From NCBI GenBank assembly GCA_015501595.1, contig JADNRX010000015.1, positions 339,187 to 403,186 on the forward strand: a stretch of 64,000 nucleotides of DNA, read 5' to 3'. The stretch is from Hymenopellis radicata. Lineage: Eukaryota; Basidiomycota; Agaricomycetes; Agaricales; Physalacriaceae. Positions 12,203 to 53,528 of the stretch are shown one piece after another (positions within the stretch are counted from its first letter, which is position 1; each line of letters opens with the position of its first letter). Under the pieces are notes generated by a model. The model made no database searches. It was given only the letters and a program-made list of their open reading frames with translations, and was not told the DNA's origin. The position numbers and the translations under genes are program-made.

Positions 12203-12494
12203 GCTTCGCTTACGATAGTAACGGTATTGATACGGTATCGAAACCTCGGCCGAGGTATCAGTACAGTTTCGATACCAACACGTGACATATCCACGTGATG
12301 GCGCGCTGGCACTCAGGCAAGCAGAAAGTGGCGGGATAAGGGCGGGCGGAGGGGGCGGAGCGGTGCACCACATCACATGGTAAAAGCACGTGCCGGTAAC
12401 GAAACCGTTACTAACGGTTTCAAAACCAGGGCCTCCCGGGGGGTCAGTATCAATACTGTTACTAACCCCCCCGGAGGTTTACTGCGCAACCCTA
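12203..12494 (-). mobile_element. TAGGGTGG element, copy 1 (58 bp 3' of tRNA-Asp)
   Basis: About 290 bp, read on the minus strand from 12494: TAGGG, GCGCAGTAAACC, a GC-rich palindromic block around CCCCCCGGGAGGCC, several GTATCGAAAC / GTATTGATAC motifs and CACGTG sites. It aligns along its length with copies at 16168 and 53272. The left neighbour in the same orientation is tRNA-Asp, whose 3' base is at 12553, so 58 bp separate the two. No open reading frame: a non-autonomous element. Confidence 0.65.
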
Positions 12495-12552
12495 GGACTC
12501 CATTGTCGACGAACTGTGAACAAACAAAAATTTACCCCGCAACAACCCTTGA

Positions 12553-12646
12553 CTCTCTGACTGGGAGTCGAACCCAGCTTTCGCGCGTCTACGTACAGGG
12601 AATACATCATGACAGGCGCGTGTACTAACCGATATACTATCAGAGA
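12553..12646 (-). tRNA. tRNA-Asp (GTC) with a 22-nt intron
   Basis: Acceptor TCTCTGA pairs with TCAGAGA, discriminator G; D arm TAGTATATCGGTTAGTA; anticodon stem CGCGC/GCGCG with loop CTGTCA then C; T arm CTGGG-TTCGACT-CCCAG. A 22-nt intron follows position 37. The mature tRNA is 72 nt. The exonic sequence is identical or nearly so to the tRNA-Asp at 16009, while the intron differs. Confidence 0.85.
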
Positions 12647-12782
12647 CATACTCATTTGCTTGATTCAATAATCCTTATCACTCTGCCCACAAACACACTC
12701 GTAGCAATAACATGAAATCTATCTAAATCCTCGAGCCAACTTCAAGTTACCGTTGTAATGGGTGTATTCTCAAGTAGATGCC

Positions 12783-13959
12783 CTACTTGTTGATGCCCGC
12801 CATCGCGGCCAGCATTGCATCCCCAATCTTGGCCGGGCTGTCCGTCACAATCGCGCCCGCTTTTTCAAGGGCAGCCACCTTGTCCTTGGCGGCGCCCTTG
12901 CCCCCCGCGATAATCGCGCCCGCATGGCCCATCCGCCGCCCCGGGGGCGCAGTGCGGCCGGCAATGAACGCGACGACGGGCTTGTTCTGGGTGTTGTAAG
13001 CCGCAATGTATTCAGCGGCTTCTTCTTCCATCGAGCCGCCGATTTCTCCGATGAGTACGATACCTAAGGAGTGTGAGAAGGGGAAGAAGAAGAATGGGGA
13101 GAACTGACCTTTGGTGTTAGGGTCGTTCAAAAAGACCTTTACGACGTCGAGGTGCTGTGTACCCGGGAAGGGGTCCCCGCCGATTCCGACGCAGAGGGAC
13201 TGGCCCAAGCCGACTTGTGTAGTTTGCGCGACGGCTTCGTAGGTGAGTGTTCCGGACCGAGATACGATTCCTGTATACCTTGTTAGCTTGGGGGGGATAG
13301 TAAGAGTAGGAGGACACACCAATACTCCCAGGCATATGAATATGGCCAGGCATAATACCCATCTTACACCCGCGGGGGTTAATCACGCCAGGACAATTCG
13401 GACCTACAAGGCGACTCTTGCTCTGGCTCTTGAGCGCGTTCATCACCCGGATCTCGTCCGCCTGGGGGATGCCCTCAGTGATAGCGACAATCAAACCTAT
13501 CTCGTTCTCAATGGCTTCTATGATGGCATCGGCAGCGGAGGGCGGCGGGACGTAGAGCACGGTGGCGTCGGGCTGGGCTTCGCGGACGGCTTCGCGCACG
13601 GAGGCATAGACGGGGAGGCCGAGGTGGGTGGTGCCCGCTTTCTTGGGTGAGACGCCCCCGACGATGCGGGTTCCGTAGGCGAGCGCGGTCGAGGCGTGGA
13701 ATGTGCCCTAGGAGAAAATAAGCGAGCATTCAAGGAAGGATAGGATTACGCACGGTTTTTCCTGTAAAGCCCTGGATGAGAACCTTTGTGTCTGCATGTA
13801 CGAGCAGGTTGGAGATGGTGTCTTCGTAGCTTCTGCGGGCAGCGGTGTGGCTGAACGTCCGGCGTCCGGCTGGCATTGTGGGATTTAGCCGAGAACACGA
13901 GACGCGACAGGACGATACGCACCGAGTTTAGCAGCGTGAACCTGTGCGGCGCGATACAT
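12783..13959 (-). CDS. LSC1: Succinyl-CoA ligase (ADP/GDP-forming) alpha subunit, mitochondrial
   Basis: Five exons (13923-13959, 13754-13869, 13320-13707, 13109-13270, 12783-13063) give 327 residues. It is the alpha subunit of the TCA-cycle enzyme that makes succinate and ATP/GTP from succinyl-CoA. Visible family blocks: [14 protein letters not shown] (CoA site), [42 protein letters not shown], and [12 protein letters not shown] with the phosphorylated His near residue 281. The first exon supplies a basic, hydroxylated presequence ([12 protein letters not shown], then [12 protein letters not shown]) expected for mitochondrial import. An in-frame ATG inside intron 1 (about 13878) would give a shorter N-terminus; I prefer the spliced start because it yields a better presequence. 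Confidence 0.93.
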
Positions 13960-14573
13960 TACTTGTGGCGTGGCGGGTGGGGGACTCAAGACAACACCCG
14001 GGATAGCCCTCAGTGTTGGTGACTATTTGGCTGTGACGTCGACGCGTCTCCGCTGGATTTTCAGACTGAGAATGGCGCACCGTTGACTGACACCAATGCG
14101 CGGACGGCGCCCCGTCTGTATTCCGTTGCACCAATTCTAGACTTGCTACTCGTGGGAACCTCTCGCACATTTTTCGGTCGCTGTACTCACGACGTCAGCT
14201 GCTCGCCAAACCAATCGATTGCGAGGTATTTGTATACGCGTCGTGTCTTCCTGCAAACTACTACGACCTCTCTATCGCCGCTCTTCGTCCTTTCAAGACG
14301 CGCCACAATTGACTTGGACATTGACTGTTCAGCAACATACAGCATTGAGGCCAATCTATCATGGGACAGGTGCGGGATTACTATGAAGAGGACGGCACCT
14401 TGAATGGCTTCAAGATGAGCCACTGCCTGGTAGACATGACCTCTAACGACGTGTACAATTGAGTAGCCCGAATAGCAACAAGTCATCCTTCGCACAAGCC
14501 TCAAGTCAGTACCGGAAAATGCCGGAAAGTCGCGTTACCTCCTGTCACGCCTACATTTTTGCTCAACACCGTC
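13960..14573. other. Divergent intergenic region
   Basis: Lies between the start of LSC1 (-) and the S16-type gene (+). It probably holds both promoters. A 33-codon frame at 14361 and a minus-strand frame across it lack motifs and are not called. Confidence 0.4.
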
Positions 14574-15913
14574 ATGCCCATCCGGCTGCGGTTCGCCCTC
14601 CACGGGACGCGCAACAACCGCATCTTCCACCTCGTCGCCATCGACGCCCGCCACGCGCGCAACGCCGCCCCCGCAGAGCTCCTCGGCATCTACGACCCGC
14701 GCCTCCCCGCTACTATACACCCCGACGCCACACGCCGCACCCCAAATACCTACAACGTTAAAGAGAACCCTGCAAGGACAGTCAGGTGGAGCGTCGATAG
14801 AATCAGGTATTGGCTTTCGGTGGGCGCTGTTCCGAGTAAGAGTGTCGCGCGTCTCTTGGAGGCTGGAGGTATTTTGGGAAATGAAGGGAAGAGGATTGTT
14901 CCGGAGGGTGTTTCGATACACGCGTTGAATACAAAGTGTAGTCGCTGTGACGTTGACGGCCATGCCGTCCGCGACTGTGATCAGCTGCCTGAAAAGATTG
15001 TCAAAGTATGTATATTCTGTTCTTTTGTGATACACGTCCTAACATACACTCAAGCAACTAGCCACAAAACAGGAGGAGGCGGTGGAGGAGGAAGTGAAGG
15101 AGGAGAGAAAAGAACCACAAGGCGTGTTCGCCGACCTCCTCAAAGCATCCCGCGAATTCGCCGCCGCATCCTCCACCACACCCACCGCACCCCTCCCCGT
15201 CATCCAAGACCTCACCACCCCTTCCGAGCCCCGCCAATCCCTCCTCGCCGACATGGACATCGTCCCCCCCAGCCGCTCCCCCCTCGCCGGGTACACCATC
15301 GACTCCCTCTCCTCCATGTCCGAAGACGAGATCACCATGCTCTTCACCTTCTGGGAAGAATGGGAGGAGGCCCGCCTCGACCGCATCCGCGCGCGCCGCG
15401 AGTTCGAGAATGAGCAAGAAGACCTGGACGACGATCTCAGAGAGGCGCTCCAGCAAGAGTGGGACGACATGGGGCCCGAGCCCGATATCTTTGGCTATAA
15501 TCAGCTAGAGGATGAGAGTGATGCGTATGCCGGGGAGGGCGAGGGTGAAAGGTATCCGTTGTATGAGAAAAAGGTTGGTGTTTTCTCCTCCTGCCTTTTC
15601 ATGTGATGATGACGGTGTGTAGGACATTGAACGCGAATTCGAGAAAATACGCTATCAGACGACGCCCGCGCACAAGTTTGTGCCTAGTACGCTGAGCAGG
15701 GAGGAAAGCGGACGTCGCGAGAAGGAGTGGAAGGCACAACGCGAGGCCGTGTTTGTCGCGGGGAAAATCAGCGCTCTCAAGGCCCAGCCAGACTTGGTTG
15801 AGCCGTCGGACTTGGAGGCCCTGTTCAGAGACGTGAAGAAGGATGTGGATCTGGAGAAGGAAAGGGAGGCTGTTTTGGAGCATGTGGCAAAGGGGAGGAG
15901 CTTGAAGCGGTGA
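14574..15913 (+). CDS. MRPS16: Mitochondrial ribosomal protein bS16m with long C-terminal extension
   Basis: Exons 14574-15005, 15073-15573 and 15623-15913 join to 407 residues. Residues 1-105 are a bS16 domain: MPIRLRFALHGTRNN, HLVAIDARHARN, LLGIYDPR, then WSVDRIRYWLSVGA and SKSVARLL. This protein sits in the small mitochondrial subunit. Typical S16 proteins end near here. This one continues with a CCHC zinc-knuckle pattern (C-x2-C-x4-H-x4-C, about residues 123-136), then about 260 residues of acidic, helical, partly coiled-coil sequence rich in Glu/Arg. The zinc-knuckle part is continuous with S16 in exon 1, so the fusion is not just a splice guess; the junction to exons 2-3 is. Two genes fused by my model is the main alternative. 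Confidence 0.75.
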
Positions 15914-16008
15914 TTCTCGCAAGTTGGATAGCGATGTTTCTTTAATGCCCATGATTATGTGTGGTGTGTGTTTGGCGATCATGAGTATGCGTGGAGGGCC
16001 ATAAGTCA

Positions 16009-16109
16009 TCTCTGATAGTATATCGGTTAGTACACGCGCCTGTCATGACCCAAACACGATGATATACATCTTTGCGCGCGAAAGCTGGGTTCGACTCCCA
16101 GTCAGAGAG
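16009..16109 (+). tRNA. tRNA-Asp (GTC) with a 29-nt intron
   Basis: Same exonic sequence as the tRNA-Asp at 12553: acceptor TCTCTGA/TCAGAGA, D arm TAGTATATCGGTTAGTA, anticodon stem CGCGC/GCGCG, T arm CTGGG/CCCAG. The 29-nt intron after CTGTCA shares only its first bases with the other copy. It lies on the opposite strand to that copy, 3.4 kb away. Confidence 0.85.
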
Positions 16110-16167
16110 CTGCAATGTATTGTCCAGTAACTTTTTTCTTCGCTACAGGGAACGGATAGGGTTGCGC

Positions 16168-16461
16168 TAGGGTGGTGCAGTAAACCTCCGAGGGGTGGTA
16201 TTGATACCGACCCCCCGGGAGGCCTTAGTTTTGAAACAGTCGATACTGGCACGTGATTGTGACCACGTGATGTGGCGCAGCGGTGCGCCGCCCTCATCCC
16301 GCCCTTGTCCCGCCACTCTCAGCTTCTCTGAACACCAGTGCGCCATCACGTGAAATGATCACGTGCCGGTATCGAAACCTACCTCCCGACCCCCGACAGT
16401 TTCAATACCGTATCAATACCGTTAATAACCGCAGTAAACCCGAGGTGTATCAAAACCTAGG
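16168..16461 (+). mobile_element. TAGGGTGG element, copy 2 (58 bp 3' of tRNA-Asp)
   Basis: Starts TAGGGTGGTGCAGTAAACC and runs about 294 bp to CCTAGGG. Conserved blocks match copies 1 and 3: CCCCCCGGGAGGCC, CATCCCGCCCTTGTCCCGCCA, GCGCCATCACGTGAAATGATCACGTG, GTATCGAAAC, GTATCAATACCGTTA. Near its end it repeats the opening motif in direct orientation (GCAGTAAACC, CGAGG, TAT). No open frame. The tRNA-Asp 3' base is 16109, leaving a 58-bp gap. Confidence 0.7.
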
Positions 16462-16474
16462 GTTCCTCGAGCTG

Positions 16475-17110
16475 CTTATTATCCAGGTCCCACTGCCCAG
16501 GATTGGCGCTTCACTGTCACTGCATAGAGCATGCCACGAGTCTAAACCCGGGTCCGGCGGGTCGAGTTTGCGCAAGTTTGCATATCTGAAGTCCGGACTT
16601 GCGACTTGTCTCAAACTTGCGAGTCGCGGGTCTAAAACTCGCGAGTTTGCGAGTTTTTGACGAGTTTTGAGCCATAACCTACTGTACTATTACGACCGTT
16701 AGTTCACGTCACACGTCACAAGGCCGCCTTATCTCCTTATTGGATACCGGAAATCGCCTCCGATCACTTATCGGGCGTGGGAAGGTCGAAAAAAATAAAT
16801 ATTTGTGAACTTACGGTTGTAATAGTACAGTACTCATATCACCTCCAACTGAGGTTAAACTAATGCAAACATGATCTCTATAGCCTATTGCAGCTCTGTT
16901 AGATCATATTCATATGTATAACACAGTTTATATGCATAATATTACTGTAGACTTTTAATCAATTTGTCGGTCACGGGTCACAGGCGATCCGAAATCGACG
17001 AAAAGTCACAGGAGTCACACTAAAATTTGCGAAAAAGTCCTCGGCGGGGCCCCCGCCAGCCTCCCGCTGCAGCTCCGCCGCGGTGGACTAGGGGACTCTG
17101 ACCACACGCG
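16475..17110. repeat. Low-complexity stretch rich in GCGAGTTT / GAGTTTT repeats
   Basis: At 16560-16670 short direct and inverted copies of gcgagttt, acttgcgagt and cgggtctaaa cluster, much like the subterminal repeats of hAT-type MITEs. No clear terminal repeats or target duplications were found. The rest to 17110 is A/T-rich without a gene. Confidence 0.3.
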
Positions 17111-17173
17111 AGGGATGATGATGGGAAGACGCAGACGATTGTGGCTGTGCTACCATCTAAATGAACACTACTT

Positions 17174-17659
17174 CTACTTCCGGATCGGTGCACCATTCTG
17201 TACCCGACTCGATCTACTCTCTCTTCCAGCCTCTTTCCCCTGGTCTTCTTCTCCTTTGGGACTTTCCCCGCCTGGGCTACCTAGCCCATGTGCCCCCCCA
17301 AAACAAGGAGACGCCCTCGTCGACATCCACGCAATGTCAACCATGCTCACCTCCTCCTCATCTCCCAACTCATCCTCCTCCTCTTCGCTAGTATCATCAT
17401 CTTCCTCCACATCGCCAATAACATCACCCAAGTCCTCCGTCTCCGCTACGCCTTCCTCATGCTCTGCTAACTTAGTGCCGGGACGGGGAATGAAACGTCT
17501 TAGCCGCCGGGAACTAAACGTGCCCTCTGCTTCACGACCATCTTTGTACCGTATCGGGGAACCATCGAGATTTACCAGATAGTAAGAGTTTCGAATTCGA
17601 CTCTCCACGCGGTAGGGCGCTGACCATCTGACTAATAGCTTTTTTTCTGTCTTCATCAC
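17174..17659 (-). mobile_element. Ty3/gypsy retrotransposon pol remnant (integrase C-terminal end)
   Basis: The minus strand reads KLLVRWSAPYRVESR, then RNSYYLVNLDG, then GTFSSRRLRRFIPRP, the usual order at the C-terminal end of Ty3/gypsy polyproteins after the integrase core. An acidic tail follows. Protease, reverse transcriptase and integrase core are absent, so this is a 5'-truncated fragment. No LTR pair was found. Flanking TTTGGCAAA motifs at 17757-17790 resemble the repeat at 34.7-34.9 kb. Confidence 0.6.
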
Positions 17660-17855
17660 ACACCCTTTAATTCCCTTGTTTGCCTAACCTATAGTCCGAG
17701 GACAACACTCTGTTTGCCTAATAGTCAGCCCAACGACTACTAGTCGCCCTACACATATTTGGCAAATATGTTCTTCTTTGGCAAATAAAAATTCAAATAC
17801 TTAGGACTCAAGCACAACGGAACACTGTAAAAGAGATACTCAAGAGTGTTCGTAG

Positions 17856-17932
17856 AAGCATAGCAGGATTCGAACCTGCAGCATTCAGCATGCTTTACTT
17901 CAGAGCATTATGCCGCTGAACCACAGATGCTT
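17856..17932 (-). tRNA. tRNA-like sequence, isotype unclear
   Basis: Acceptor AAGCATC/TATGCTT pairs at six of seven positions, the D arm GTGGTTCAGCGGCATAAT and the T arm GCAGG-TTCGAAT-CCTGC are good. The anticodon arm is irregular: ATGCT/AGCAT encloses nine bases including GAA, and the variable region is ten bases. It is probably a tRNA pseudogene or tRNA-derived repeat. Confidence 0.4.
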
Positions 17933-18009
17933 GGCTGACCTCAACCCAGCAGCGTCATAGTACCTCGTTACCACGAGGTAGTGGCAAAAGTTGTCCCACA
18001 CTAGCCATA

Positions 18010-18085
18010 AAGCACACCCGTAGTCGAACCCGCGACCTCAGGTTAACTTGGTAGCGCACACTCGACCACTGAACCACAGGTGCTT
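18010..18085 (-). tRNA. Degenerate tRNA-like sequence
   Basis: Starts AAGCACCTGTGGTTCAGTGG, much like its neighbour at 17856, and ends near GTGTGCTT. The T stem is mispaired (GCGGG against ACGGG). Two related tRNA-like units in the same orientation 80 bp apart suggest a tRNA-derived repeat rather than working genes. Confidence 0.35.
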
Positions 18086-18238
18086 GTACATTGATGTGCC
18101 GGCACCTTGACTATACCTTCATCGTCACATTCACCTCAACTTCTGATACTCAGATATTCTTGTACTACTCTCCCGCAGTCTCAAAGAAACAAATTTAAAA
18201 AAAACATATATAATTCAATAAATGTTTGCCCAATATTT

Positions 18239-21200
18239 CTACTCTGTATCTGCATCCGCGTCATCTTCATCTTCACTGTCACCCTGCTCTTCCGCCTCAT
18301 TCGTTTCATTCCAGTCCTCCGCTTCGTCGACTTCAATCCCGCCAGCTTCCCATATCGCTCTGAAAGCGCCTACCAATGTGCGCTGTGTGGCGGCCTGCTG
18401 AGCTGCATATGCACGTATACCCTCCTTAATATCCGCACCAAGTTCCGTGTTCTCGCTCTCCCGGCGCGCATCCCACCAAATCGCTCTCTCCTCCAACGTC
18501 ACTGGTATGCGTCGCATCTCTTCCTCTAGTACGTTCACCTCTTCGGTCCAGCGATTCGATCTGGCCCTGCTCTTCAACCATTCCATGTGGCAGCCTGACT
18601 CAGTTAATCAATTAGTGTACCTGAAGAATTACAATCTTACCTTCGACCACATCAATACCGTGGCCCGTCTCATTCGCCCAAATCCACGACAACTCCGCCG
18701 CACCTTCACCCAACGGCATTAGCACATCAATATCAAAGCCACCCCCCGTCATGTTATTTACATCGGCCTGTCGCAGAGGTCGAAGCTCGACGGACCAAGC
18801 ACCACCCGGATCCAAGCGCTCGAGGGCCGGCGACAATGCCTATACTTGTCCGCGTTAAAATCCCGTCGAGCCTCAATGGTTTTGATAGAGCTTTGCGACC
18901 GTGTCAGGACAGCTTGGCCATCTGTCTCGTCGCGTCGAAAGGCTGCGTAGGTCCGCAGCCCACGCTCACAGTCCCGCATAGCATGGAGCGCATCGTTGCA
19001 TTGCGTTATACGGAGTTCCTTCTCCTTCGCCGGGAAACCTGGTGAACAAACCGTCTGTCGTACGTTCGCGTCAAAATCCGAAGGCATCCACAACTTCTGG
19101 TCCTCGACATCAATTGGCACCCTACGGGCAACCGTTTCGGCCGCCAACCGAGCAGCCACCCCAGGCATATAAACGAGCTGACTGCTTCGGAACAATCGGA
19201 TTTGCCTGGACAGTGCTTCGCGCTTCCTTTGTATATCGCTGGCTTGACCTTGGGTGAGTGTCCCTTCGCCGTCTGTTAGAAGTCGCAATTTTTGCCTAGG
19301 ATGACCGTCACTTGCACAGTTTCAACAACGCGTTAAGAAGGATGTGACGTACTGCTGCTGCTCGATCGAGAAACCCAATGCCAGACATCCAGTCGGCAAA
19401 GTATCGTGCAACCGCGGTGCACCCTGTTCAATGGCCAGACGCTCTGCCTCTCGCATTCGATAGCGTGCCTGGCCCTCCGTCTCATCTATGAGATAGTTAG
19501 CAGTCGAAAGATAGCGCGAAGTGTTACCTACGTTTTACGACCTGCGCATATGGATTCTCAATCTCTGCGTGATGCCTCTCGCGCTCCCACGCCTCAATTC
19601 CTTCCGTCCAACGAGAAACAGTGTCGGCGGGTAGATGATTGGTGAAATCCTCATGCAAGCCGACTTGCTTTAGACTCTGCTTGCGAGCTTTTACCAGCCG
19701 CTTCAAGGTGATCATTCCTGTACTCCGCAATCAGCTACGCAATTCCCTCAAGTAGAGGATACGGCACTTGCCCAAATTGATTAGTTTGCACCAGTTATGA
19801 AATTGAAACTGGTCATCCAGCGTATCCGCTCGCGATCCAGGTCCCATTTCCTTGATGCTAGCGGCGCACATTCGGACGAATGCCCAAACTCGCTCGATGG
19901 CTTCCCCATCAGTTCGTCCCATTCCAGGCTGAATTCCCATGGCGTACTCGACTTGACATTCAATTTGATGACAGGGAGCATGCGCTTTCGGAATCGCGGG
20001 CATCGTCTCCATGGTTTGCGGTAGCTGTAGTTCCTCGGGCAGAGTCTCCATGCGCGTCAGGAAATTCTTGATCCATTGACACGCTATGTCATACGAAAAG
20101 CAGACCTCTTTTAGCTCGTGGTCGTCACGCAGGGCTGTGCACGCCACGAAATCACTATTGCAAAACCTGATAGGCGTTCTTCAACGTTACGTAGATGTAT
20201 AACGCAAAAAATCATACCGTTCGCCCTTCTGCAAATTTCCCACGGACTGTGGAGACACCATTTCATGGCGCGAACACATGGCGGCGACCACGCCAGTGCA
20301 GCGTAGCCCCGTGTTATTCTTCGAATCGGCGTGGGCAATGGCCCTGAACCCGCTGCAAGTATTCATCTAGATGACACCCTCAACCCAAGCCTAGAGTCGC
20401 TGACAGCCATTGACTTACATCTTTCTGGCTCGCATTCTTCAATACGTGCAACCCGTAATCGCCTGCATCATCCAACATGAAGCCCGCGCCCGGATGTAGT
20501 GAAGGATCCGTTGCTTGATTGGATCGATGTAAATTGGTGAGGCGGAAACAGGCATCCAAAGAAATCGTCTTGCGGTAGATATACCTTAGGCCCATCAGTT
20601 AATCACTTCTCGTTCCATCAATGAATGTATAACTCACTGATTAACACGCTCTTTCCAGTCTGGCGGCAGATTCACGGACGGAATAGGACAAGCTGGACAT
20701 CTCAGGACGAGCTCCCCTGGCTCGAAATGACTGGCACCGTCCCTTTCACTGCCTTTGCCGCCACGCATCATGAACAGAAGATGTCGATACTGACGAATCA
20801 TGCGTAGGAACGGTTGATATCGCTTCTATAACCTCATTAGCATCAAGTAAAACGCGTAAAACTTGGCTACCTTGGGGACTTTGATTCCCAATGCATCGGT
20901 TAGATAAATCATCGACTTATAGAAGGCATACACCGACAGTTTCCCATTCAAGGTCAGAGCGTGGAATAGATCAAGAGCGTCCAGAGTTGCGCATGTAGCC
21001 GGCAGACGTACAGTCGCCGGATACCAACCAAACCGTAGCAATTGCTGCCGTCGCGGTACAGACTGTAAACAGTTGCAATACCGAACCGACACGTCGTGAA
21101 TGCCATTCGAATGGATGATGACTAGGCGCTCAGTCGTTCGCGGCATAAAACATTTCGAACCGTCCTCGTGGCCTAAATACACTCGCAGGCCCAGCCGCTG

Positions 21201-21957
21201 CAAGGGTATACGAACAAATTTCTCGCCATCCCATTTCTTCCACGGCAAATTTCAAAAATACATCCAGCAAAAGGGCGAGAAGCGTACCTGTATAATATGA
21301 AGGGGTTTCGTAGCATGTTCCGAAAGACAGCACGCCTTGCAAATGAGGCGGCTGGGAGCACATTTCCGACAGCGATACAGATCACTCTCGGGCTGCTTGC
21401 AGCCCGCACAAGCATCCGGAGGACAATTCCCCCGCCCCTTCAGCCTCAGCAGTTCGTACAGAAACTCCTGGGCGAAGTTATACGTTCCTCCGCGCCCTGC
21501 CCAAACATCCATGGCACGTCGCTAACGATATCATTGGTGCCAGTCAACAAAGAGGACTGAATCATACTCACTCGCCCAGGACGTCTCGTTGTCGGGAAAG
21601 CGTGTTTCGGCTTCTCTGGCTCCTTGGCAATCTCAGCGTCGCTGTCGCTGTCCACCCAATCAAGCACGACATCTGGCGCCGGTTCTTCTCCATCGCTCGA
21701 TTCCTCTATGACCGTCCAAGTCTCCCTGTACTTCGTGTTCACCTGGCTGCTAAAACTAGGCCAGCCTCCATGACCAGGTCACCCCATTCGTTCCGCTCAT
21801 ACTGAAGCGTCTCAATGGGCGCCGGATCGTCGTCGCTAGGTGTTCCGGGCGCTCTCGAGTAGCGAGGCCTTCGGCGTCCATGTTGTCCATAGGGCTTTGC
21901 TGGTTGAATATTCCTACGGCGGCGCAAACCATTTTGAAAAGATTTGGGGTTGAACAT
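18239..21957 (-). mobile_element. KDZ transposon: CxC2-type KDZ transposase gene
   Basis: Exon pieces over 3.7 kb follow the order of Kyakuja-Dileera-Zisupton transposases. The N-terminal part is Arg-rich then acidic (start ATG at 21957). Then comes the CxC2 cysteine cluster near 21330-21400 (CAGCK, YRCRKC, ICKACC, H). The segment LGLRVYLGH is at 21170-21200 and RLTNLHRS near 20540. The catalytic region follows: SYDIACQW, then MPAIPKAHAPCHQ, GRTDGEAIERVWAF and a DDQFQFHNWCK stretch (19790-20100). A helical C-terminus with WTEEV, EEEMRRI and WW ends at 18239. The element looks nearly complete, but near 21742 the frame changes without a clean intron. Terminal repeats were not found. Confidence 0.8.
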
Positions 21958-22109
21958 TGACCGGTCTCCAAAAGCGACAACCGGTGTACAAAAGCTCCAA
22001 ACCGATGACCGAGGGGAGATGCGGATATTACGTTGTGGCGTCGAGGAAGCGTATAAAAGGACGGTGATGGGTAGACGTCCACTTCCAGTCTTTAACGGCG
22101 ACCACCACC

Positions 22110-25779: not shown

Positions 25780-25799
25780 GCGGCGTGGGCGGGTGTTTC

Positions 25800-29060: not shown

Positions 29061-29226
29061 AGAGTATGATTCACATTACACTCAGTCAAGCCCCGGGAGC
29101 CAATTTTGGAAGACAATTGTAACATTTATTTGCACGTAAAGATTGGCACGTAAAGACAGACGATTCACAATACACGTAAGGACAGAAGAGGCAGGACGGC
29201 TCCCACACGACAACAAGAACAAGGAT

Positions 29227-43400: not shown

Positions 43401-43487
43401 CTAAACGAAGAGTACGGAACGCGTCGGGTAGGTACACAGGTCAAGGTAGATGATCCGTTCTTGATTAGTGTAGATGACTTGGCATAA
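40444..43487 (+). CDS. KOW-motif (Spt5-like) protein, about 930 aa
   Basis: Exons 40444-40650, 40703-40796, 40845-41173, 41224-42312, 42367-42728 and 42776-43487 keep phase. The second exon begins MSAVAKFLDLEALDEEFEDDD, an acidic start like Spt5. Around residues 315-345 a KOW motif is visible (VTIRAGKYDGDVGFAI then VLILPRI); a second KOW-like segment is GSAPWLGTNIVITHGIHKGRRANVV. Spt5 contacts RNA polymerase II through such domains; here the NGN domain is not obvious, so this may be one of the diverged Spt5-like proteins expanded in mushrooms. Translation may instead start at 40703. The first exon contains the hairpin at 40530. Confidence 0.65.
40530..40569. repeat. 17-bp perfect inverted repeat inside an exon
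   Basis: TGCCGATGCACATTCGG (40530-40546) and its exact complement CCGAATGTGCATCGGCA (40553-40569) are separated by six bases. The arm core CGATGCACATTCGGA is shared with the larger hairpin at 48606. Confidence 0.95.
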
Positions 43488-43668
43488 GTCGCATGTAACA
43501 TTTTTCGTATACTATAATACAACCATTTCGACTCAGCTATCTATCCTCTTTGCCGCGCCATGTGGCGGTCCATCGGAAGCATACGTTGAGTTCGAAGTCG
43601 CCTTTAGTGTCATTGCATTAACGTTTCTGAAATTGGAATCAATGAATTCTATAAGAAAAGTACTACTT
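43488..43668. other. Convergent 3' flanks
   Basis: Short A/T-rich gap between two convergent genes. Nothing else seen. Confidence 0.4.
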
Positions 43669-45009
43669 CTAGTCAGATATCAAGAGGGCCTCTTTCTGGA
43701 TGAGGCGCGACTCTGTCACAGCCTCCGGACGTGGCCCCAGTCCAAAAATAGTTTGTCCCGCCATGGCCACAAGATCGACTTCACCATCTATCCTCAGCAG
43801 GTTGGTAAGCCTCATACCAACAAGCTTCAGTACACGCCTTTTTATCAACACGCTTTCGGGAACACCATCCCGCCTGGCATCTCCCGTTAAAAGATCGATT
43901 TCTGTAAGTAGTCGAGTCAGGCCGAGCCTCGCTTTCTTGAGGTCGAAAAGTGCACGGGACAGGCGGATCCGCGTGTCAACAAGGATATCGAAGCAAGCCG
44001 TCGACCGTGCATACCACCATTTCCAGGGGAAATAGCCGCTTTTCCTAGCGGAAATCTCGATGCAGATACCGGAGTATGTAGCGTCGACAGCACCGATAAC
44101 AAGATCCAATTGCTCTCGGGCAATGATTCCAGAGCTTGTTGCCTTGTTCATGGCATCTGCGATGTTTAGGGCTCGATCTGGGCGCGTCAAGGTGGCAGAG
44201 AACTGCAGCGTGTACGGATCCACCTCATGGTAGGAGATGAGAAGACTATTGGAATGAATCAGGTTGACGACGGGCCATGACAAGGGATGATGACCCACAA
44301 ATCTAGCTCGTCGCGCATGGTCGTGACAAAAACTTCCAAGTCTAATACGGCCGCCCAGCTAGCCACGTCTAGGAAATCTACCCGACCCTGAAGTTCATCA
44401 CCTTCAGGGTCGCGAAGGGTATAGCAGTCAGACCAGTCAAGTCGGATTTGACGCGTGTTATATTCCCGTGAGACATCCCAGCTAATTCTGCCAGCACGGA
44501 AGCCCCCCAGCCCTCGTTTCTTTCAAGAGGGTCAATATCCTTGATCAACGCTTCACGTGTCGTGCAGAGTCCGAAGAAGTTGCGATTTTTGATCAGAGCC
44601 ACCTTGCAGATTGGGGGCTCAGCCGGCGCGTAGAGCGCAAACACGACAGTCGACACGAGTCCCAGAGTAATCATAATGCCGACGACCATTCTTCTGAAAG
44701 GATGCCTCTTGTCAGATGATGATGATTCAGATGAATGGTCGGGTGATTCGTTGGATATGAGTGCATGATCCGCGGGCGGGCACGAATGGTCGGCTGTACG
44801 AGAATGGGCGGCAATTCTGGAGAATACGAAAGAGATGACGCCTTCCCAGAATTGAGGGTCGAGGCCGTACGAGGTTATTAAGCCACAGATGGAATTGTAG
44901 AGAACTGTGTTACAAGTGAGAAAAATATCATCTGGAGAAGAGAGAACACACCACTCATCCAACTCATCATTTTGAAAATAGTCTTGATGGTGGTAGGTAC
45001 CTTACTCAT
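43669..45009 (-). CDS. Single-pass membrane protein, 413 aa, with one-base frameshift
   Basis: Exons 44952-45009, 44299-44904 and 43669-44245. A 47-nt first intron and a second intron at 44246-44298 join in phase only if one C is added to the CCCCCC run at 44503-44508; then 414 codons result. Features: a Ser/Asp-rich N-terminal region, one transmembrane helix (MVVGIMITLGLVSTVVFAL), and a large C-terminal domain (ELQGRVDFLDVASWAAVL, ISYHEVDPYTLQFSAT, LDLVIGAVDATYSGICIEIS). No family recognised. The start is 143 bp from the divergent gene at 45153. Confidence 0.55.
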
Positions 45010-45152
45010 GTTGGTGGGTGGCTTTGAACTCGTTTGTGATCAAGAGACGCTGTCAGCCGATCGGCCAAGACAAGGCATCACGTGCGCGCGAATGTGGACG
45101 CGTGCGATCATTCAGGGTTAAAACTCCCACATCCGTTTCCTTTCAGTCACCC
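45010..45152. promoter_or_regulatory. Shared divergent promoter region
   Basis: Only 143 bp separate the start codons of the minus-strand membrane protein and the plus-strand WD-type protein, so both promoters must overlap here. It contains gcatcacgtgcgcgc, a CACGTG E-box. No TATA box stands out. Confidence 0.4.
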
Positions 45153-46466
45153 ATGGACGCATCCAAAATCCGTTATTTCGCAGAAAAACGTCTTAAATCT
45201 GCCCTTACTGTCTCCATCGGGGCTTTCTCTGATGAATGCACCTATCTGGCTCTTGCGCGAGGGCCACGAATCACTATAGTGGCAACCTCTGATGCTCTAT
45301 GCGATCCTATCTATTACCAAGACGCCGATTCGGACGTCACGGCGCTGCTCTGGCTATCCGACAACATTCTCATTGCGGGGTACGCTAGTGGAAACTTCGT
45401 TACGACACGAATCACCTACACATACGTGCGTGGCAGCCAGTAGGAAAACACATGGTCTGATAGGTTCACAGCATCGGGTCCAAGGGGAGGCCTTTGGTCT
45501 CCGCGCCTTTCCTAATAGCAGTATCGTCGCCATGCTCAAAGGATCGTCCCGAAATAGGTTGGTTTTGGCCAGTGAAAGCAATGTGCAGTTATGGCGTTCG
45601 ACTTGGATCTCTCGGCTTGAATCTGGTTTACCAAGGTGGATCTTCGACAAGCAGTTGACGCTATCCACCAATCAGCCGGTCTTGGCACTATCGTGGTCCT
45701 ATCGCAGCCCAAAGGACCTGTTCATAGTCCATCCGCAAGGCATCATGTAGGCAGCTGCTCTCTCCGTATGCGAAATCTTACTGATCGAATCCCCTCCAGG
45801 GAGTGGGATGTCAGACATAATAAGCAGTCCGAGATCTTCAAACGACCTTCGAATAGCGAAATGTAAGTGATTGCAGCCTGATTTGTGACACATTTGTGCT
45901 AAGCCGCCGGTTTGTCAGCCTTCGGATCTCATGGGACGGTCGACGAGTAATACTGGTAGTTCACCAGGCTGAATGCCGCACTTTCAAGTGCCTGGACATC
46001 TTCACGGGAATTTGGACGCACTTTTCGGCGCCGGACCTGGACAATCAGGAAGCAAAGACAAATGACAAGGTTGAGGTTACCTTTACCCACGACGATAAGC
46101 TGCTCCTGCTTGGAACCTCGGGCTCCGAGCGCCTGATACTGTGGGATCTCACGGCGAGTGACCAAGAGGTTCTGAAAATTATTCATGACTGGACTCCGGG
46201 GGAGGACGCCACTTTATTGATGATTCCTGTGCGTGGCCTTGGAGGATGCTGTTCATTGAAGACTGACTTTGGCTACATAGGCATATCCTAGGGTTGGCCT
46301 ATGGAGGACTGTGCATACTTTTGCGTCTATCCGAGGGTCCAGGACAATGGTTTGGGAAGCATCGGAATCAAAGATTGGGCTGCGAGGAACCCTTGTTCTT
46401 CTTTCCTTATGCAGTCTTTGCATGCTATGCGTATGGTACGTAGCATCTGTTAATATGGAACTTTGA
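45153..46466 (+). CDS. WD40-like beta-propeller protein
   Basis: Exons start at 45153-45425 and 45472 onward, with three further short introns (after about 45748, 45859 and 46229). Repeat-like blocks include FSDECTYLALARGPRITIV, ALLWLSDNILIAGYASG, LVLASESNVQLWRS, ISWDGRRVILVVHQ and FTHDDKLLLLGTSGSERLILWDL. These follow the WD/propeller pattern, though few repeats end in a strict WD. The last exon (46281-46466) adds a hydrophobic segment. The partner or pathway is unknown. Confidence 0.55.
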
Positions 46467-46819
46467 AGAAGCCTTACAGTTCATGGCAGGCTCGGCCTTA
46501 CATTGGCATGGAGGGCGAATGGGTTAGATAATTCAGAGTTCTCGTAATACACAATGAGGCTGTAATAAATGTATACTACGTTGTCTACGCTGGTCTGTAT
46601 GTATGAAAACCGCAATCTTCATAATTTCATAGCGACTCGGGCGGTCGAAATCAAGGTGCGGCTTATTTCGAAAGGCAGGGCTCTCATTCAACTTTCCGGA
46701 TTTCTGTCAGTTCGACGACGCCGTTATACGTAATCGGAGGTATTAATCATCTCTCGCATTCCTTTCAAGACATTCCTTTCAGCTCACTTCTGAACCACAC
46801 CAGAGATATCTCAACGGCA
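46467..46819. other. Intergenic, no gene seen
   Basis: Gap between two plus-strand genes with no structure noted beyond the MYND gene 5' flank. Confidence 0.4.
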
Positions 46820-48330
46820 ATGACAGAGGTGCGATAGATTCTTGCAACTTCATGGACAACATAGCTGATAGTATTCCTTAGCGCCGCATCCAGCGTTTCG
46901 AACGCGTGGCGTTGAAAGATATTCCGTCCTCGTTTCTGCCCCTCTATGTTAGAGGGGGCGACATTAGCGACTACGTGTTGCTTATCAATATGCACATGTC
47001 CTTGGCCCATATTCCTACCCGACACTCAGCGCGATTCACTGTGGAGGTTGACGTGGCCTGGCAATGTCTTCTGCGCGCCGGACACATAAAGTTTGTCGAC
47101 CGCCAGTCAGCAAATGATGTGCTCTCCCCACAACTCATCTCATGGTGCCTTTACTTCCTCGAGGTCGTTCCGTGGGAAACCATCCATAGCGACGTTGATT
47201 GGCCCGACGTCGATCACCCATTCCTTCTGCTACCATGGCTGCTTTGCGAACACAAAGTGATGATGACATTGATGTGTCTTCCATCCAACACCTCCAACAA
47301 TTCACCCCTGCAGAAGACCGCTTCCGCTATGCTCAGGATCTCAGTCCAAGCGGCACTCTTATACCGGACGGATATGTCTGGCGTCTTTGAAAACATCGAA
47401 GACATCTTTCGCACCCTGTATTCCGTCTATCCCAAGCACTACGTGGAATCTGCTATTACGCAGGCCGCTGACGGCGTCACGGAGAAACAAGTAAAGGCCT
47501 TGGCCACTCGGCTTGCTAGCTATGTTATCGACAAGCCTGACAACCTCCCTATTGAACGCGTTCTTCAGATGATTACGCGCCTCAGCAGAAGGTCCACCCA
47601 CATAGACAACCTCTGTCGGGAAGCCGACACACCTCGATGGGCGGCTCACGCTCTCCGCGTCGCTGCGCAACGTCCAGTTTGTCGCACTAACGAGCATGAA
47701 TGTACGGTGCTTGTTGTGAGCGCGTCGGCGGCGTACCTGTCTTGGCTCTTCGCATCCCAGCCACAGACCGGCAAACTGGTACAAGAAGCCTTGAAGAACA
47801 AACTCCTCCATGCCCTATTCAGGTGCCTCAATTATGAGAAGAGGCTGTGGGCGACGCGCGAGGGGGCGTTACCTGTTACCACCCTTCTGAAATACTTGGC
47901 GATTCGAATCGCCGCCTGCCCGACGACAGGCCGGAAGGCGAAAGTTGCCCTCAGGCGCGTCAAAATGGAAGGGAAACATTCAGAGGCGCGTACGATCAGA
48001 CCATCTGAGGCAGTCTCTACCCAGGTGCGATCCGAAGCAGACGACGTTTACGTGGATCTCTGGATACGCTGGGAGTTGGTAGTCGACGCCATCAGGGATC
48101 CGGATATGGAAGAGGAATCATGCGCCAATCTTCAGGTAGGTCATGGATGTCGAATTGAACGGGGATTGAATGGGAATTTGCAGTGCACGATTCGTGGACG
48201 CTCGCAGTTGAAAATATGCAGTGGCTGTTGGGACTTGCGCGTATGCTCGAGGGAATGTTATCGGAAGGTGTGGAAGCAAGGCCATGCCAAGGAATGCTGT
48301 CGCAAAGATTTAGAGATGTCGAAAGACTAG
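46820..48330 (+). CDS. MYND-type zinc finger protein, 469 aa
   Basis: Exons 46820-46828 (nine bases: MTE), 46882-48135 and 48184-48330. The C-terminus is a MYND finger: CTIRGRSQLKICSGC, then VCSRECYRKVWKQGHAKECC, with the Cys/His spacing of the family. MYND domains bind proline-rich peptides in regulators. The body is helical and repeat-like (ARM/HEAT-type helices), similar to many mushroom MYND proteins. The last intron is a multiple of three (48 nt); keeping it would insert 16 residues just before the finger. Confidence 0.75.
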
Positions 48331-48605
48331 TCCTATCAAGTATAAGTTACTATCGATGGAGTTAAATGTATTAGAATTGACCTTTTGGATCTGAAGACGT
48401 CTCTTGCTGTAAGATTATCGTTCGAAGGCATGTGTCGACCCCATGGGCGGCATCTACACCGCCTCAACTTCGAAGATGATTGCAGTCTACAAGAGATCGA
48501 GTTAGCCACATAGAATACAAGAGCGAGACACTCACCCACCAAGTGAGTATGCGCTTCTCCGACCGACACCACCACTACATGTTATCATGGTGTGGAGCAA
48601 GGCTG

Positions 48606-48742
48606 AAAAAGCTGTGCAGGCGCTGGAGCCGCATTGATCCAGAGGGCCAACGATGCACATTCGGAACTTCCGGCTGTGGATCTCCGAATGTGCATCGTTG
48701 GCCCTCTGGATCAATGCGGCTCCAGCGCCTGCACAGCTTTTT
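48606..48742. repeat. Perfect 60-bp inverted repeat with 17-bp loop
   Basis: 48606-48665 and 48683-48742 are exact reverse complements. Flanking gcaag / cttgc extend the pairing with mismatches. Transcribed in either direction it would form a long hairpin RNA. The inner arm carries the 15-mer CGATGCACATTCGGA also found in the hairpin at 40530. Confidence 0.97.
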
Positions 48743-48831
48743 CTGGCTTGCTCAGAGCCATCACCAACCCCAAGCGCCGTCCCGTAAGTTGCATCCACAG
48801 TATGTGACTGAGCGCTAATGTCATTTCAGTA

Positions 48832-49144
48832 GCGACCATTTCCACTCGCCAGTCAGCCTACCGCTACCCAATTTCTCGACCCGATGCAATCAGCGACGAT
48901 TCCGAAGAGGAGCGATGGACTCCGCTCGTCCGCAGAGTAATGAGCGAGGGATCTGGCGATGATGAAGACGACGAAGAGGAGTTCGTTGGCGGTGATGCGT
49001 TGGCGGTGATGGTTATCTGGTCGATGAAGACCGTGGTCGTTCTGCTCGGCGGATTGGTTTGAAGAACAAGGTTGAGCTGCAGAGCTTCGCTGTTGATGGT
49101 TTGGATGTCGAAATGAAGTCGAATCAAGCGCGTGAGACCGTGTA
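48832..49144 (+). CDS. 3' end of a hypothetical gene, frameshifted
   Basis: After an acceptor (TTTCAG, about 48829) a frame reads STRQSAYRYPISRPDA, SDDSEEERWTPLVRR, DDEDDEEEFVGGD; a one-base shift near 49000 is needed to continue as GYLVDEDRGRSARRIGLKN and to stop at 49142-49144. Upstream exons would have to lie in or beside the 60-bp inverted repeat. Acidic, no known domain. Confidence 0.35.
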
Positions 49145-49365
49145 AACTGGTATGTGCCCGTATATCTTATCCTGAAATGTGAAATATTTTCTGCTTCCTT
49201 CAAGCCGTACATGCTTCAACTTGGACTAAACCCAGTGTATAATTTTCGTCGGACTACGCGCAACCCACTGGACAGACTGTACAGATCAACGCGACAATTA
49301 CATCGTACGCTATCACGACTACTAGCACTAGTAGTAAATATCATGTTCATTCACCGCATTTGTGC

Positions 49366-50223
49366 TCAATCGGCAGGATATCGGCGAGCCGTCCCTATAG
49401 TGATGAACTGTGCCGCTAACTCGCGAATGCGCAATGTGTATGTCCCTTCCTGATCCTGAACCCACGGACCCGCTTTGTAGGTCGTTCCAACCGTAACAGG
49501 CGTCCAGTGAGGAGCATCGGAACGATATTCCCAGATGGATACCTCTGTGGCCTTGCCATGCCACACCAGGAACGTCACCGCAATGGGCCGCACGCCGCCG
49601 TCGTTCAATTGAGGAGGGGGTGGTGCTATTATACTGACGTTGGGTTTCTTACTATCAGGGATTTTCAAGATGTACGACAAGACATCCGCATTCATGTTTT
49701 TGACGGGTATGCGCTTGACGCACCTGTCAACGCTCCTGGTCAGCGAAGTAACTATCTGAGCTTTGCTGAATCACTCACGCTTCTTTAAAGATATCGTCAC
49801 CTGTCCCTTCCTTTTTAGGATGTCCAGTCTGGTCAGCACGAAGTTTGCGTTGAGTGGCGTGTCTCATGAGCACCTTAGTCGCGCTAGCAGCAAGGAAAAC
49901 GTTAGCCCACATGCGCGGCGTAAGGTGCAGAGCTACCTAGCCATTCTCTCGAGAGGACCGGGTGTCATCATGGGTGGAGGCCTAGCGAGGCTGAGGGGCG
50001 GTATGATGAGACTGGTGAAACATGGTTAGATTAGGATAAGCAGTGGTGAGACAACCCGCCTTTGGCTTCTTTCAAGAGAGGTGGTTCGTCGATTCTCAAG
50101 CAAAGGTAGGTTGGGAGTGGCGCGGATGCTGGGTAGTACGGTATAGGATTGCCCGTGGACGCAGTCAAAGGTAACATAAAAGGAATCCTCGCCAGGAGTG
50201 AACTCGAGAACCTCGTCGGCCAT
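49366..50223 (-). CDS. Hypothetical protein, exon structure unresolved
   Basis: Two segments look coding: 50026-50223 starting MADEVLEFTPGEDSFYV, and 49366-49695 containing VAVTFLVWHGKATEVSIWEY-like beta sequence (PIAVTFLVWHGKATEVSI) and ending GTYTLRIRELAAQF. A third possible exon (TPLNANFVLTRLDILKRK) lies at 49790-49870. I could not join them in one phase. Family unknown. Confidence 0.4.
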
Positions 50224-50317
50224 TATGTCACGTTAATACGAAGAGTTGGGTGGCAAACGCAGATGAAAGCAGGATGAAAGCGAAGCAAATCACAGCTTTA
50301 TCTCGCTTAGCTCCTTA

Positions 50318-52989
50318 ATGGCCGATGAATCGATCATGCAACGCGTTGACCACGCGTCGATCAGCGTTTATCGGCCTAAAAGGGATGCACTGTCACTCTT
50401 ACCATTAACATCGCCAAAACTTCGCCGGTACAGCTGGACGCAAGTCGAAATTGGAGTGCTTTTCATGAGGCCATGCGAGTGTACCCGCCGACACCGTAAG
50501 TCATAAAGGCCTTTGCCGAAAGGACCTTCGGGCCTAATACTTAAACTTTGCCCCGCCAACAGACCCATCCCTGTAACCGTCTCTGAAGCTGATCATATGT
50601 CTGGTGAGCTATTCTCACAATTTTGAAACCCACACTTCACCTTTATATGCTCAGCTCGATTCCAAAGAAATAGCAGGAACCCCACTGTCTCTACCGACGA
50701 GATCTCCGGTATCGCCACTGAAGTAACGCAACATGTTCTTGCGACCCACGATGCTCAGCGCAAGAAAGAAATGACGAACTTGAAGAGCGACTTCAAGCAC
50801 CTCCAGGCCAGTTGTTCTTCGTATGCTGTTCGGTACAACTCAAACCCCAACAGGGCTCCGTCGCATCGAAGGAGGACCTGGAACAATTGAACGTTACGGT
50901 AGACCAGAGGTTCGCTGCTTTGGACAAAAAATACGAGCGTTGGTGTGAAGGTACAAGGAAAATTGTGGCTGATACGAACACAAAGGTGGACAACTTGGAA
51001 GATGAACATTCAGAAACTCGGAGGGCTCAACATGAGCTCAAGAACGGCCTTGTTACTGTTCAAAGGGACCATGCAAAGGCGATCGTTACTCAACGTAAGT
51101 GAAGCCCATATGGCCCTGTGCTTTAATGCTTGAAGATTCTACGCAGGTGTGATCCAAGAGGACAATCACCGTATGCATGCGGAAACAATAGTATATGTCG
51201 ATGGCCGCATCGAAGAAGTTTCAGAGGACAGTCGCCGTATGCATGCAGAAGCAACAGTTTATGTCGATGGACGCGTTGGAGAAGTTTCAGAAGATGTGAA
51301 CCGAATCTTACAAAATGGATATGCGTCTTCCTCGTCGAACGGTCAGCATGAGCGGATGTACGGTTTCGATCATGGGCCGGCTACTGACACTGCTGTCAAT
51401 AATACGTTCGCAAGCGAGCTCGGAAATTGGACGACACTTCCGAACGATTCAAGGGATGCTGGTCATAAAGTCAGTCTTTTGTACATTGCTCGAACATTAT
51501 TAATCTGACTCTCCACCAGGTCAACGGCAAATCTATCTCTCAACTATGTACAGAGCTACTCGTTGATGTCGAGGACCAACTAGAGCCCCAGAATCACATA
51601 CGGCCTGTCGACTACTCGAAGCAAGACGTCCAAAGCCCCATGCTGTCCGCAGATGAAACGGCTGCATCAGTCACGGAGTCGCTTCAGGCGGCTCCCATCG
51701 ATAAAGCGGATTATCCCTCCCCAGACGAAGGAGAGGAGGATGGATTGGATGCGCTTAGCGACATAGAGACGCGGAGCACCATGGCGGCTGTTGTTTCAAC
51801 AGGTTGGGATGAGGACGAGATAGGATTGGAGTCTTGTCGGGGTAGTACGCCATCACTGTCCATGGCCGAAGAGGACCTCAGTCTCTCTCCATTGGATGAA
51901 GGTCTGTCAGCGCCAGTCAACGAACAGGCACAGCCTTCTGCAGACCTGCCGATGGTGCTTCAGTGCTTGGAATCCGGGCATACGGGTGGTATCGATACAG
52001 AGGCGGTTCCCATCGATAACGCGGACTATCCCTCCCCAGACGAGGGAGAGGAGGATGGATTGGATGCGCTTAGTGACGGAGAGACGCGGAGCACCACGGC
52101 GGCTGTTGTTTCAACAGGTCGGGATGAGGACGAGATAGGATTGGAGTCTTGTCGGGGTAGTACGCCATCACTGTCCATGGCCGAAGAGGACCTCGGTCTC
52201 TCTCCATTGGACGAAGGTCTGTCAGCGCCAGTCAACGAACAGGCACAGCCTTCTGCAGACCTGCCGATGGTGCTTCAGTGCTTGGAATCCGGGCATACGG
52301 GTGGTATCGATACAGAGGCGGTTCCCATCGATAACGCGGACTATCCCTCCCCAGACGAGGGAGAGGAGGATGGATTGGATGCGCTTAGTGACGGAGAGAC
52401 GCGGAGCACCACGGCGGCTGTTGTTTCAACAGGTCGGGATGAGGACGAGATAGGATTGGAGTCTTGTCGGGGTAGTACGCCATCACTGTCCATGGCCGAA
52501 GAGGACCTCGGTCTCTCTCCATTGGACGAAGGTCTGTCAGCGCCAGTCAACGAACAGGCACAGCCTTCTGCAGACCTGCCGATGGTGCTTCAGTGCTTGG
52601 AATCCGGGCATACAGGAGGTATCGATACAGAGGGCACGTCCATTGGTATCGTCGAGATTAGCGACGATTGTACGTCGGCCGTGGATCAAGACTCCTTTGC
52701 CGCCTGGCTGAACAGAATATACCCTTCGTCCATGATGGTCAGTGAGAGAGCGCTGGCTGTGGACCTCCGACGAACTACCAATCTGGTAGATCCTGGCCAC
52801 CTAAGTATGATCATTGAAGTCTTGTGCCGGATGATACCTTACACAGCGTTGGGGACATATGTCCTTCTTTTCTTTGGTACATTGGTGATCTTCATTATAG
52901 TTTTTCGCCATTGTCCCTCTGGCTTTTCCCCGCAGCCATATGAGGCAGACCCGAACCTCATTCAGACATCATTCTTTCAATATCTATGA
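50318..52989 (+). CDS. Coiled-coil, tail-anchored protein with 105-residue tandem repeats
   Basis: The N-terminal exon starts MADESIMQRVDHAS (50318). Several exons to 51500 encode coiled coil (KEDLEQLNVTVDQRF, LDKKYERW, SETRRAQHELKNGL) and a 23-residue duplication (MHAETIVYVDGRIEEVSED, MHAEATVYVDGRVGEVSED). From 51694 an acidic 105-residue unit is repeated three times. The C-terminus has one hydrophobic helix (ALGTYVLLFFGTLVIFIIVF) followed by 27 residues. This layout suggests a membrane-tethered coiled-coil protein such as a Golgi or nuclear-envelope tether; this is inference. Splice sites at 50496-50563 and 50780-50865 are uncertain. Confidence 0.55.
51694..52638 (+). repeat. Three 315-bp tandem repeats in coding sequence
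   Basis: Period 315 bp (105 codons): cccatcgataa recurs at 51694, 52009 and 52324. Copies 2 and 3 are nearly identical at DNA level, copy 1 differs at a few sites, and a partial fourth unit follows. This indicates recent unequal exchange. Confidence 0.95.
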
Positions 52990-53134
52990 GTAGCAATAGA
53001 ATGACTGAATATACTGTACCTTTTATATCCAACTCTCAAACCTAATGTAAGTTCTGAGTGAATTATTGTTTTTTTTTTTGGTGAAATGCCTTCCGCCTAA
53101 GGCGCCTAGAAGGGCGGGTCCAGCTACATTACAA

Positions 53135-53215
53135 GGACGTGTAGCCAAGTGGTTAGAGTACCTTCATGCACATATACATATTGGCCTGTTACGGGTTCGA
53201 GTCCCGTATGTGCAG
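53135..53215 (+). tRNA. tRNA-like sequence with intact T arm
   Basis: A D arm (TAGCCAAGTGGTTAGAG) and T arm (ACGGG-TTCGAGT-CCCGT) are well formed and 81 bp span the whole. The acceptor ends do not pair (GGACGTG against ATGTGCA) and no good anticodon stem is seen. It is probably a decayed tRNA gene. Confidence 0.4.
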
Positions 53216-53271
53216 TGTGCAACATTTTCACCTTTTTATTTAAATACAGTTACCGTGTTTGCTTTTTACTT

Positions 53272-53528
53272 TAGGGTGGCACAGTAAACCTCCCGGGGGT
53301 GCTAGTAACGGTATCAATACCGACCCCTGGGAGGCCCTAGTTTCGATACCGTTAGTAATGGCTTCGATACCGGCATGTGTTTTGGACACATGATGTGGCA
53401 CAGCGGCTTGCCGCCCCCATCCCGCCCTTGTCCCACCAATCTTAGCCTCTCTAAGCACCAGCGCGCCGTCACGTGAAATGATCACGTATCGGTATCGAAA
53501 CTGTACTGATACCTCGGCTGAGGTTTCA
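53272..53528 (+). mobile_element. TAGGGTGG element, copy 3 (56 bp 3' of tRNA-like sequence; truncated by satellite)
   Basis: Starts TAGGGTGGCACAGTAAACC and aligns with copies 1 and 2 through GACCCCTGGGAGGCC, CATCCCGCCCTTGTCCC, CGTCACGTGAAATGATCACGT and ACCTCGGCTGAGGTTTCAAT. At 53529 homology stops and the satellite begins, so its distal 40-60 bp are missing. Confidence 0.65.

Follow-up and report, generated by a model that had tools for sequence, protein, structure and literature searches.

Short inverted-repeat elements, probably mobilised by a hAT-type transposase, lie behind tRNA and U6 genes in one orientation in Hymenopellis radicata

The window, a stretch of 64 kb from Hymenopellis radicata, a fungus described as degrading decayed wood (PMC8480192), carries three copies of a short non-coding element. 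They begin at 12494 (-), 16168 (+) and 53272 (+), where a sequence-only reading of this DNA had placed them, and alignment reveals damage in all three. Copy 1 starts 58 bp past an intron-containing tRNA-Asp(gtc) gene (12553..12646, -) and spans 12494 to 11341 on the minus strand. From sequence and alignment, it consists of a 5′ portion (12217..12494, -) and a 3′ terminal portion (11341..11390, -) with the 3′ inverted repeat TAGGGTGGTGAAGTAAACCC (plus-strand reading), separated by ~0.8 kb of unrelated DNA close to the 3′ end (11391..12216, -, approximate boundaries). A 124-aa ORF from this foreign DNA gave no Pfam match at E ≤ 0.1, and copy 1 has no clear target duplication (four mismatches). 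Copy 2 (16168..16464, +), which lacks its last ~15 bases, lies 57 bp past a second intron-containing tRNA-Asp(gtc) gene (16009..16110, +), and directly 5′ of it stands a TAGGGTTGCGC fragment (16157..16167, +), perhaps the remaining 5′ tip of an older element of family A or C as defined below. Both tRNA-Asp genes were called by ARAGORN with introns allowed and were missed by its default setting and by Rfam. Copy 3 (53272..53530, +) begins ~57 bp, by eye, past a tRNA-like sequence (~53138..53214, +, boundaries by eye) whose B-box motif (53194-53203, +) ends 68 bp upstream of the element, and which neither ARAGORN with introns allowed nor Rfam called. Its 3′ end is lost at ~53530, where it adjoins a satellite-like array with 166/135-bp spacing (53589-64000, +). 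The distances first given were 58, 58 and 56 bp, of which the value for copy 1 holds and the other two shift slightly; the common start first given, TAGGGTGG, is not shared by copy 1, which starts TAGGGTTG. A protein encoded at 46882-48327 gave two matches, both in Hymenopellis radicata (50% and 47% identity). The window also contains a KDZ transposase remnant with three stops (19794-20381, -), found with an identical score in two other contigs, and an inverted repeat (48595-48753) with 71-nt arms that are 97% complementary and 17 nt apart.

The search space was the window's own assembly, 75.5 Mb in 1405 contigs. Copy 3 as query returned 47 matches, the best 40 of 184 candidates being scored. 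The end pattern of these elements, which we call family A, has 336 genome matches at one mismatch or fewer (179 + 157), against a single match for the reversed-pattern control; together with an association with tRNA genes at dozens of other loci, this excludes chance. The 5′ end is TAGGGTGG(C/T)GCAGTAAACCTCC and the 3′ end, in inward reading, TAGGGTGGTGAAGTAAACCC. One exact 5′ form has 90 genome matches and one exact 3′ form has 87; a variant of the 3′ form has 56, at least two of which (C47 and C485) are 5′ ends. A sample of 100 loci plus the window, merged into 75 segments of 286 kb, yielded 93 rows, one of which, an unoriented pair and left out, proved to be a family C element. The 5′ end is missing from nine of the 92 oriented rows and the 3′ end from 12, leaving 83 5′ ends and 80 3′ ends for the counts below. 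Family A elements are non-coding, with a median length of ~332 bp over 71 pairs (300-345 bp in 56 of them) rather than the ~290 bp first estimated, and are closed by inverted repeats of ~19 bp (TAGGGTGGYGMAGTAAACC).

A perfect 8-bp target duplication (TSD) flanks 50 of the 71 family A pairs, compared with none of 4970 cross-pair controls; the remainder have one mismatch (four pairs), two (two pairs) or three or more (15 pairs), and the 71 include a few likely mis-pairings or remnants, such as C860:1483, counted as misses. In two of six position/base tests the duplicated sequences show a preference: position 2 is T in 25 of 50 (p=0.002; 15-16 in shifted controls) and position 7 is A in 22 of 50 (p=0.0008; 7-9 in shifted controls), the two occurring jointly in 10 of 50, with 3.4 expected, which amounts to a weak nTnnnnAn motif. 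Family A is not alone. When the fetched segments were scanned for TAGGG...CCCTA pairs, under the built-in condition of an 8-bp duplication containing no more than one mismatch, 66 pairs were recovered. Family A accounts for 54 of them; the remaining 12 comprise six of family B, five of family C and one of a further type. The family B end TAGGGTMGTGGAAAYAACC has 90 genome matches and the family C end TAGGGTTGCGCAGKATA has 87, with none in either control. All three families start with TAGGG at both ends, have the core TAGGGTNGYG in common and are placed behind genes in the same manner.

Of the 83 family A 5′ ends, 45 are found no more than 150 bp downstream of a tRNA called by ARAGORN, at 44 distinct genes (two 5′ ends share one tRNA on C518), and tRNA and element have the same orientation in every one of the 45; random placement would give ~0.08 of 83 ends, taking an assumed 1000 tRNA genes genome-wide. 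No tRNA lies within 150 bp of any of the 80 3′ ends, and within 600 bp there are only two, one 315 bp away in the same orientation and one 524 bp away in the opposite one. Across the fetched loci, wherever an element end stands within 150 bp downstream of a tRNA, the direction is the same (50/50), and a forward B-box motif occurs within 135 bp upstream of 30 of the 71 family A pairs and downstream of none. The remaining 5′ ends comprise six with a B-box motif 50-125 bp upstream, two behind U6 or U5, 14 that follow another element of family A, B or C in a stack, six by a shared repeat (assigned by hand) and 10 others, three of which (C861, C819 and C741) have a tRNA-like appearance, by eye only. 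At L014 and L015, another sequence common to both, GTACAGTA near the sequence end, lies upstream of the element, and at L015 a tRNA-Asp stands 311 bp away by eye.

A census taken from the side of the genes gave the same picture. Among the best 63 of 2877 Rfam tRNA candidates, chosen regardless of elements, 14 have a family A 5′ end within 300 bp and at least 19 have one of family A, B or C. All 19 of these ends are downstream, in the same orientation and 24-80 bp away, and among the ends listed for the 63 tRNAs none is upstream, reversed or 3′-end first. The genome-wide comparison of distance and orientation that had been proposed for the three window copies reveals strong enrichment. What it does not bear out is a near-fixed distance: over the 45 family A 5′ ends the median is 58 bp, with an interquartile range of 43-68 and a full range of 12-133 bp, so the 56-58 bp seen in the window is the median of a spread, and the supposed ruler is a distance window. 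The proposal of Pol III-directed insertion survives in a modified form, as an orientation-specific preference for a certain distance 3′ of tRNA genes that extends to U6.

The elements also lie behind genes other than those for tRNA. U6 is transcribed by Pol III, and two of six U6 matches have an element downstream: a family A 5′ end 52 bp behind the match on C358 (L067), which at 40.4 bits is below the Rfam cut-off of 44 bits, and a family C 5′ end 27 bp behind the one on C553. This search scored 47 of 4261 candidates at E up to 0.1, and five of the six matches are above the cut-off. A third match, on C1184, has a family C 3′ end ~0.6 kb downstream, and none of the listed ends is near the other three. 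Four of the six span 134-161 bp against the usual ~105 (L067:1329-1462(-), and those on C553, C1040 and C1184), consistent with U6 genes containing introns. A family A remnant also begins 30 bp past a U5 gene (L010:930-1047, +). U5 is usually a Pol II product, and the run of nine T that follows this gene is what one would look for behind a Pol III unit, not behind a Pol II one; that this U5 is transcribed by Pol III is a guess, and our literature search found no Pol III-transcribed U5 in fungi. Six further insertions lie behind a repeat of ~0.7 kb, in one orientation and, by eye, no more than ~60 bp apart when mapped onto the repeat, at L011, L027, L025, L093 and L095 (C515, C613, C752, C574 and C1295); the two on C1295 are in near-identical inverted copies and may be non-independent. 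Rfam named nothing in this repeat, giving one chance-level match (L095, E 0.99), and the repeat is possibly an unannotated Pol III unit.

Several genes have received more than one element. For 16 stacks located behind tRNAs, the length of the proximal element was subtracted together with that of one assumed duplication, which places the distal element originally at 21-131 bp (median 68.5), and at 46-77 bp in 12 of the 16. The simplest reading of the stacks is that one gene was struck repeatedly within the same window of distance. Over all families, listed ends no more than 80 bp apart form 30 same-orientation pairs (a few loci counted twice), two tail-to-tail pairs and no head-to-head pair, and in the stack on C58 the distal element is reversed. 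A run of four T separates gene and element in 49 of 50 cases, and in 44 cases the median from the end of that run to the element is 35.5 bp. The distance has a standard deviation of 21.9 bp when counted from the 3′ end of the gene and of 23.5 bp when counted from its 5′ end; counted from the terminator it is 19.3 bp, only a little tighter than from the gene end. These spreads do not discriminate between B-box-bound TFIIIC and terminating Pol III as the anchor.

The elements have inverted ends and 8-bp duplications, share a bias of position and orientation, and have struck many genes, some of them repeatedly. We consider it highly probable that they are non-autonomous TIR DNA transposons (MITEs), likely hAT-mobilised, that prefer to insert ~30-80 bp behind Pol III units. 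A hAT-type transposase, which our searches did not locate, would most likely mobilise them, and insertion would occur ~30-80 bp behind a tRNA or U6 gene, beyond the T-run terminator, so that the element's 5′ end faces the gene. The transposase, or its complex with the element ends, may be tethered by a factor residing on Pol III genes, the likeliest candidates being B-box-bound TFIIIC and the terminating polymerase itself, and the enzyme so held would join one element end on the gene side. Some observations sit less easily with such a model: the distance is broad (12-133 bp), 21 of the 71 pairs are without a perfect duplication, one target is U5, six of the 83 5′ ends lie by an unnamed repeat and 10 have no categorised target, and the two tail-to-tail neighbour pairs depart from the single orientation.

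The TIRs of hAT transposons are short and imperfect with a YARNG-type start, and the TAGGG ends are hAT-like. Membership is assigned from the ends and TSDs only: these ends, the 8-bp duplications and the weak nTnnnnAn motif, which resembles the target preference reported for Hermes (PMC10368747), fit hAT transposons. A search for an autonomous partner with the same ends, suggested at the outset, used hAT and KDZ models and the long TIR pairs, and found none. The hAT dimerisation domain PF05699 has 70 matches in the genome; 61 of these places were compared with the listed family A pairs (the other nine are within 176 bp of a compared one), and none falls inside a pair, nor, by eye, inside a pair on the seven contigs where such a match and B or C ends occur together. 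A search with PF14372 returned nothing, as did its controls, so this result proves little. Five ORFs from long TIR pairs had no Pfam match at E ≤ 0.1, and no coding partner was found in the long pairs read; a coding copy may lie in the 5.8-kb pair on C358 or the 11.3-kb pair on C1240 (both family A) or in the 3.4-kb pair on C1074 (family C). KDZ proteins, with at least 166 genome matches, are abundant, and among the matches listed none was seen by eye inside a listed TIR pair.

That abundance lends some weight to a mobilising enzyme from the KDZ, P or Mutator-like superfamily instead of hAT, and KDZ elements also duplicate 8 bp of target. P and MuDR, for their part, are among the superfamilies with duplications of 4-10 bp described in PMC3706591. 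We nevertheless find a non-hAT enzyme rather unlikely, if still worth considering, since the TAGGG ends and the nTnnnnAn-like bias fit hAT and the genome has its 70 hAT dimerisation-domain matches; neither PF05699 nor, by eye among the matches listed, KDZ falls inside a listed TIR pair.

A different objection is that insertion is unspecific, and that open chromatin and selection have left survivors mainly near tRNA genes. Few nucleosomes and no coding sequence are expected directly behind tRNA genes, and our data come from one genome, in which selection after insertion is not fully separable from targeting. Openness, however, gives neither an orientation nor a side bias, and this counts against unspecific insertion, given that all 50 orientations agree and that the upstream side is empty among the listed ends of the census (19 of 19 downstream). 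Stacked copies, moreover, return near the same window once the newer element is subtracted. We regard survival alone as improbable.

It is very improbable that the short elements are moved by a Dada transposase, even though Dada is a superfamily of DNA transposons of small RNA genes and occurs in the mushroom Laccaria bicolor (PMC3706591). The Dada families described there are devoid of terminal inverted repeats, duplicate 6-7 bp of target and settle within the gene, and we rejected membership on all three of these defining features, the elements here having ~19-bp TIRs, 8-bp TSDs and sites 12-133 bp outside genes. Least credible of all is that the copies are duplicated tRNA-plus-element blocks, a possibility raised by the sequence-only reading: sequence upstream of the tRNA is indeed common to C256/C858, C113/C193, C444/C572 and C188/C1, but the distances differ within those pairs (74/54, 38/67, 35/61 and 34/61), as do the TSDs in the two pairs of which both members have a perfect one, the targets span 29 anticodon labels (17 isotype labels, one a doubtful 'Stop' call), and the gene-to-element sequences show only three inter-locus matches, of 15-22 bp. 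Differing distances, TSDs and anticodons exclude block duplication as the general cause, and it could account for a few copies, such as those in the near-identical C1295 repeats.

Beyond a probable preference of hAT-like MITEs for Pol III units, a stronger reading, to which we would give an even chance, is that a hAT-type cut-and-paste transposase has evolved Pol III tethering and docks behind the terminator in one orientation, its landing sites thus marking Pol III genes; that it reads a transcription unit rather than a target sequence, hitting one gene repeatedly; and that a gene hitherto unannotated, within the ~0.7-kb repeat, is among those so marked, as a Pol III-type U5 may be. Such an enzyme would show, in nature, a DNA transposase whose choice of site a host complex might direct. 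It also raises the questions of what part of the Pol III machinery does the holding and why the same end always leads.

Compared with known systems, the elements combine familiar parts. With hAT transposons and their MITEs (Hermes, Ac/Ds) they share short TIRs and 8-bp TSDs, and they have a weak tendency towards the nTnnnnAn preference of Hermes (PMC10368747). The differences are the targeting of Pol III genes here and a coding partner that was not found. TRE, yeast Ty and Dada elements had been drawn on as parallels, and TRE and Ty are excluded as relatives, since inverted ends and 8-bp duplications show that family A belongs to neither. We know of no described hAT transposon that targets Pol III genes, and titles and opening lines of abstracts in the literature (subscription papers and Repbase lying outside this scope) gave no inverted-repeat DNA element downstream of tRNA genes, the closest being Dada (PMC3706591) and the retroelements reviewed in PMC5911963. 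TRE3 of Dictyostelium, inserting 40-150 bp downstream of tRNA genes in the same transcriptional orientation (PMC5911963), resembles family A in its working and not in membership. It has a reverse transcriptase and an oligo(A) tail, and a TRE3-like retrotransposon was rejected for a non-coding element of ~332 bp closed by an inverted repeat with 8-bp TSDs. Ty1 and Ty3, which insert upstream, share the targeting of Pol III genes and are LTR retrotransposons, unlike the TIR DNA elements described here. Skipper-2, another LTR retrotransposon that targets Pol III genes, lies 8-23 bp downstream in D. discoideum (PMC5911963). Dada is alike in comprising DNA elements that target tRNA and snRNA genes, also in a mushroom host (PMC3706591), and differs in having only sub-terminal repeats and a strict site in one gene type, in contrast to positions outside genes of many anticodons. 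Retroelements are known to target Pol III genes, and Dada does so within the genes themselves; inverted-repeat DNA elements settling in a fixed orientation behind tRNA and U6 genes would, if our reading is right, represent a separate invention of the safe-haven strategy.
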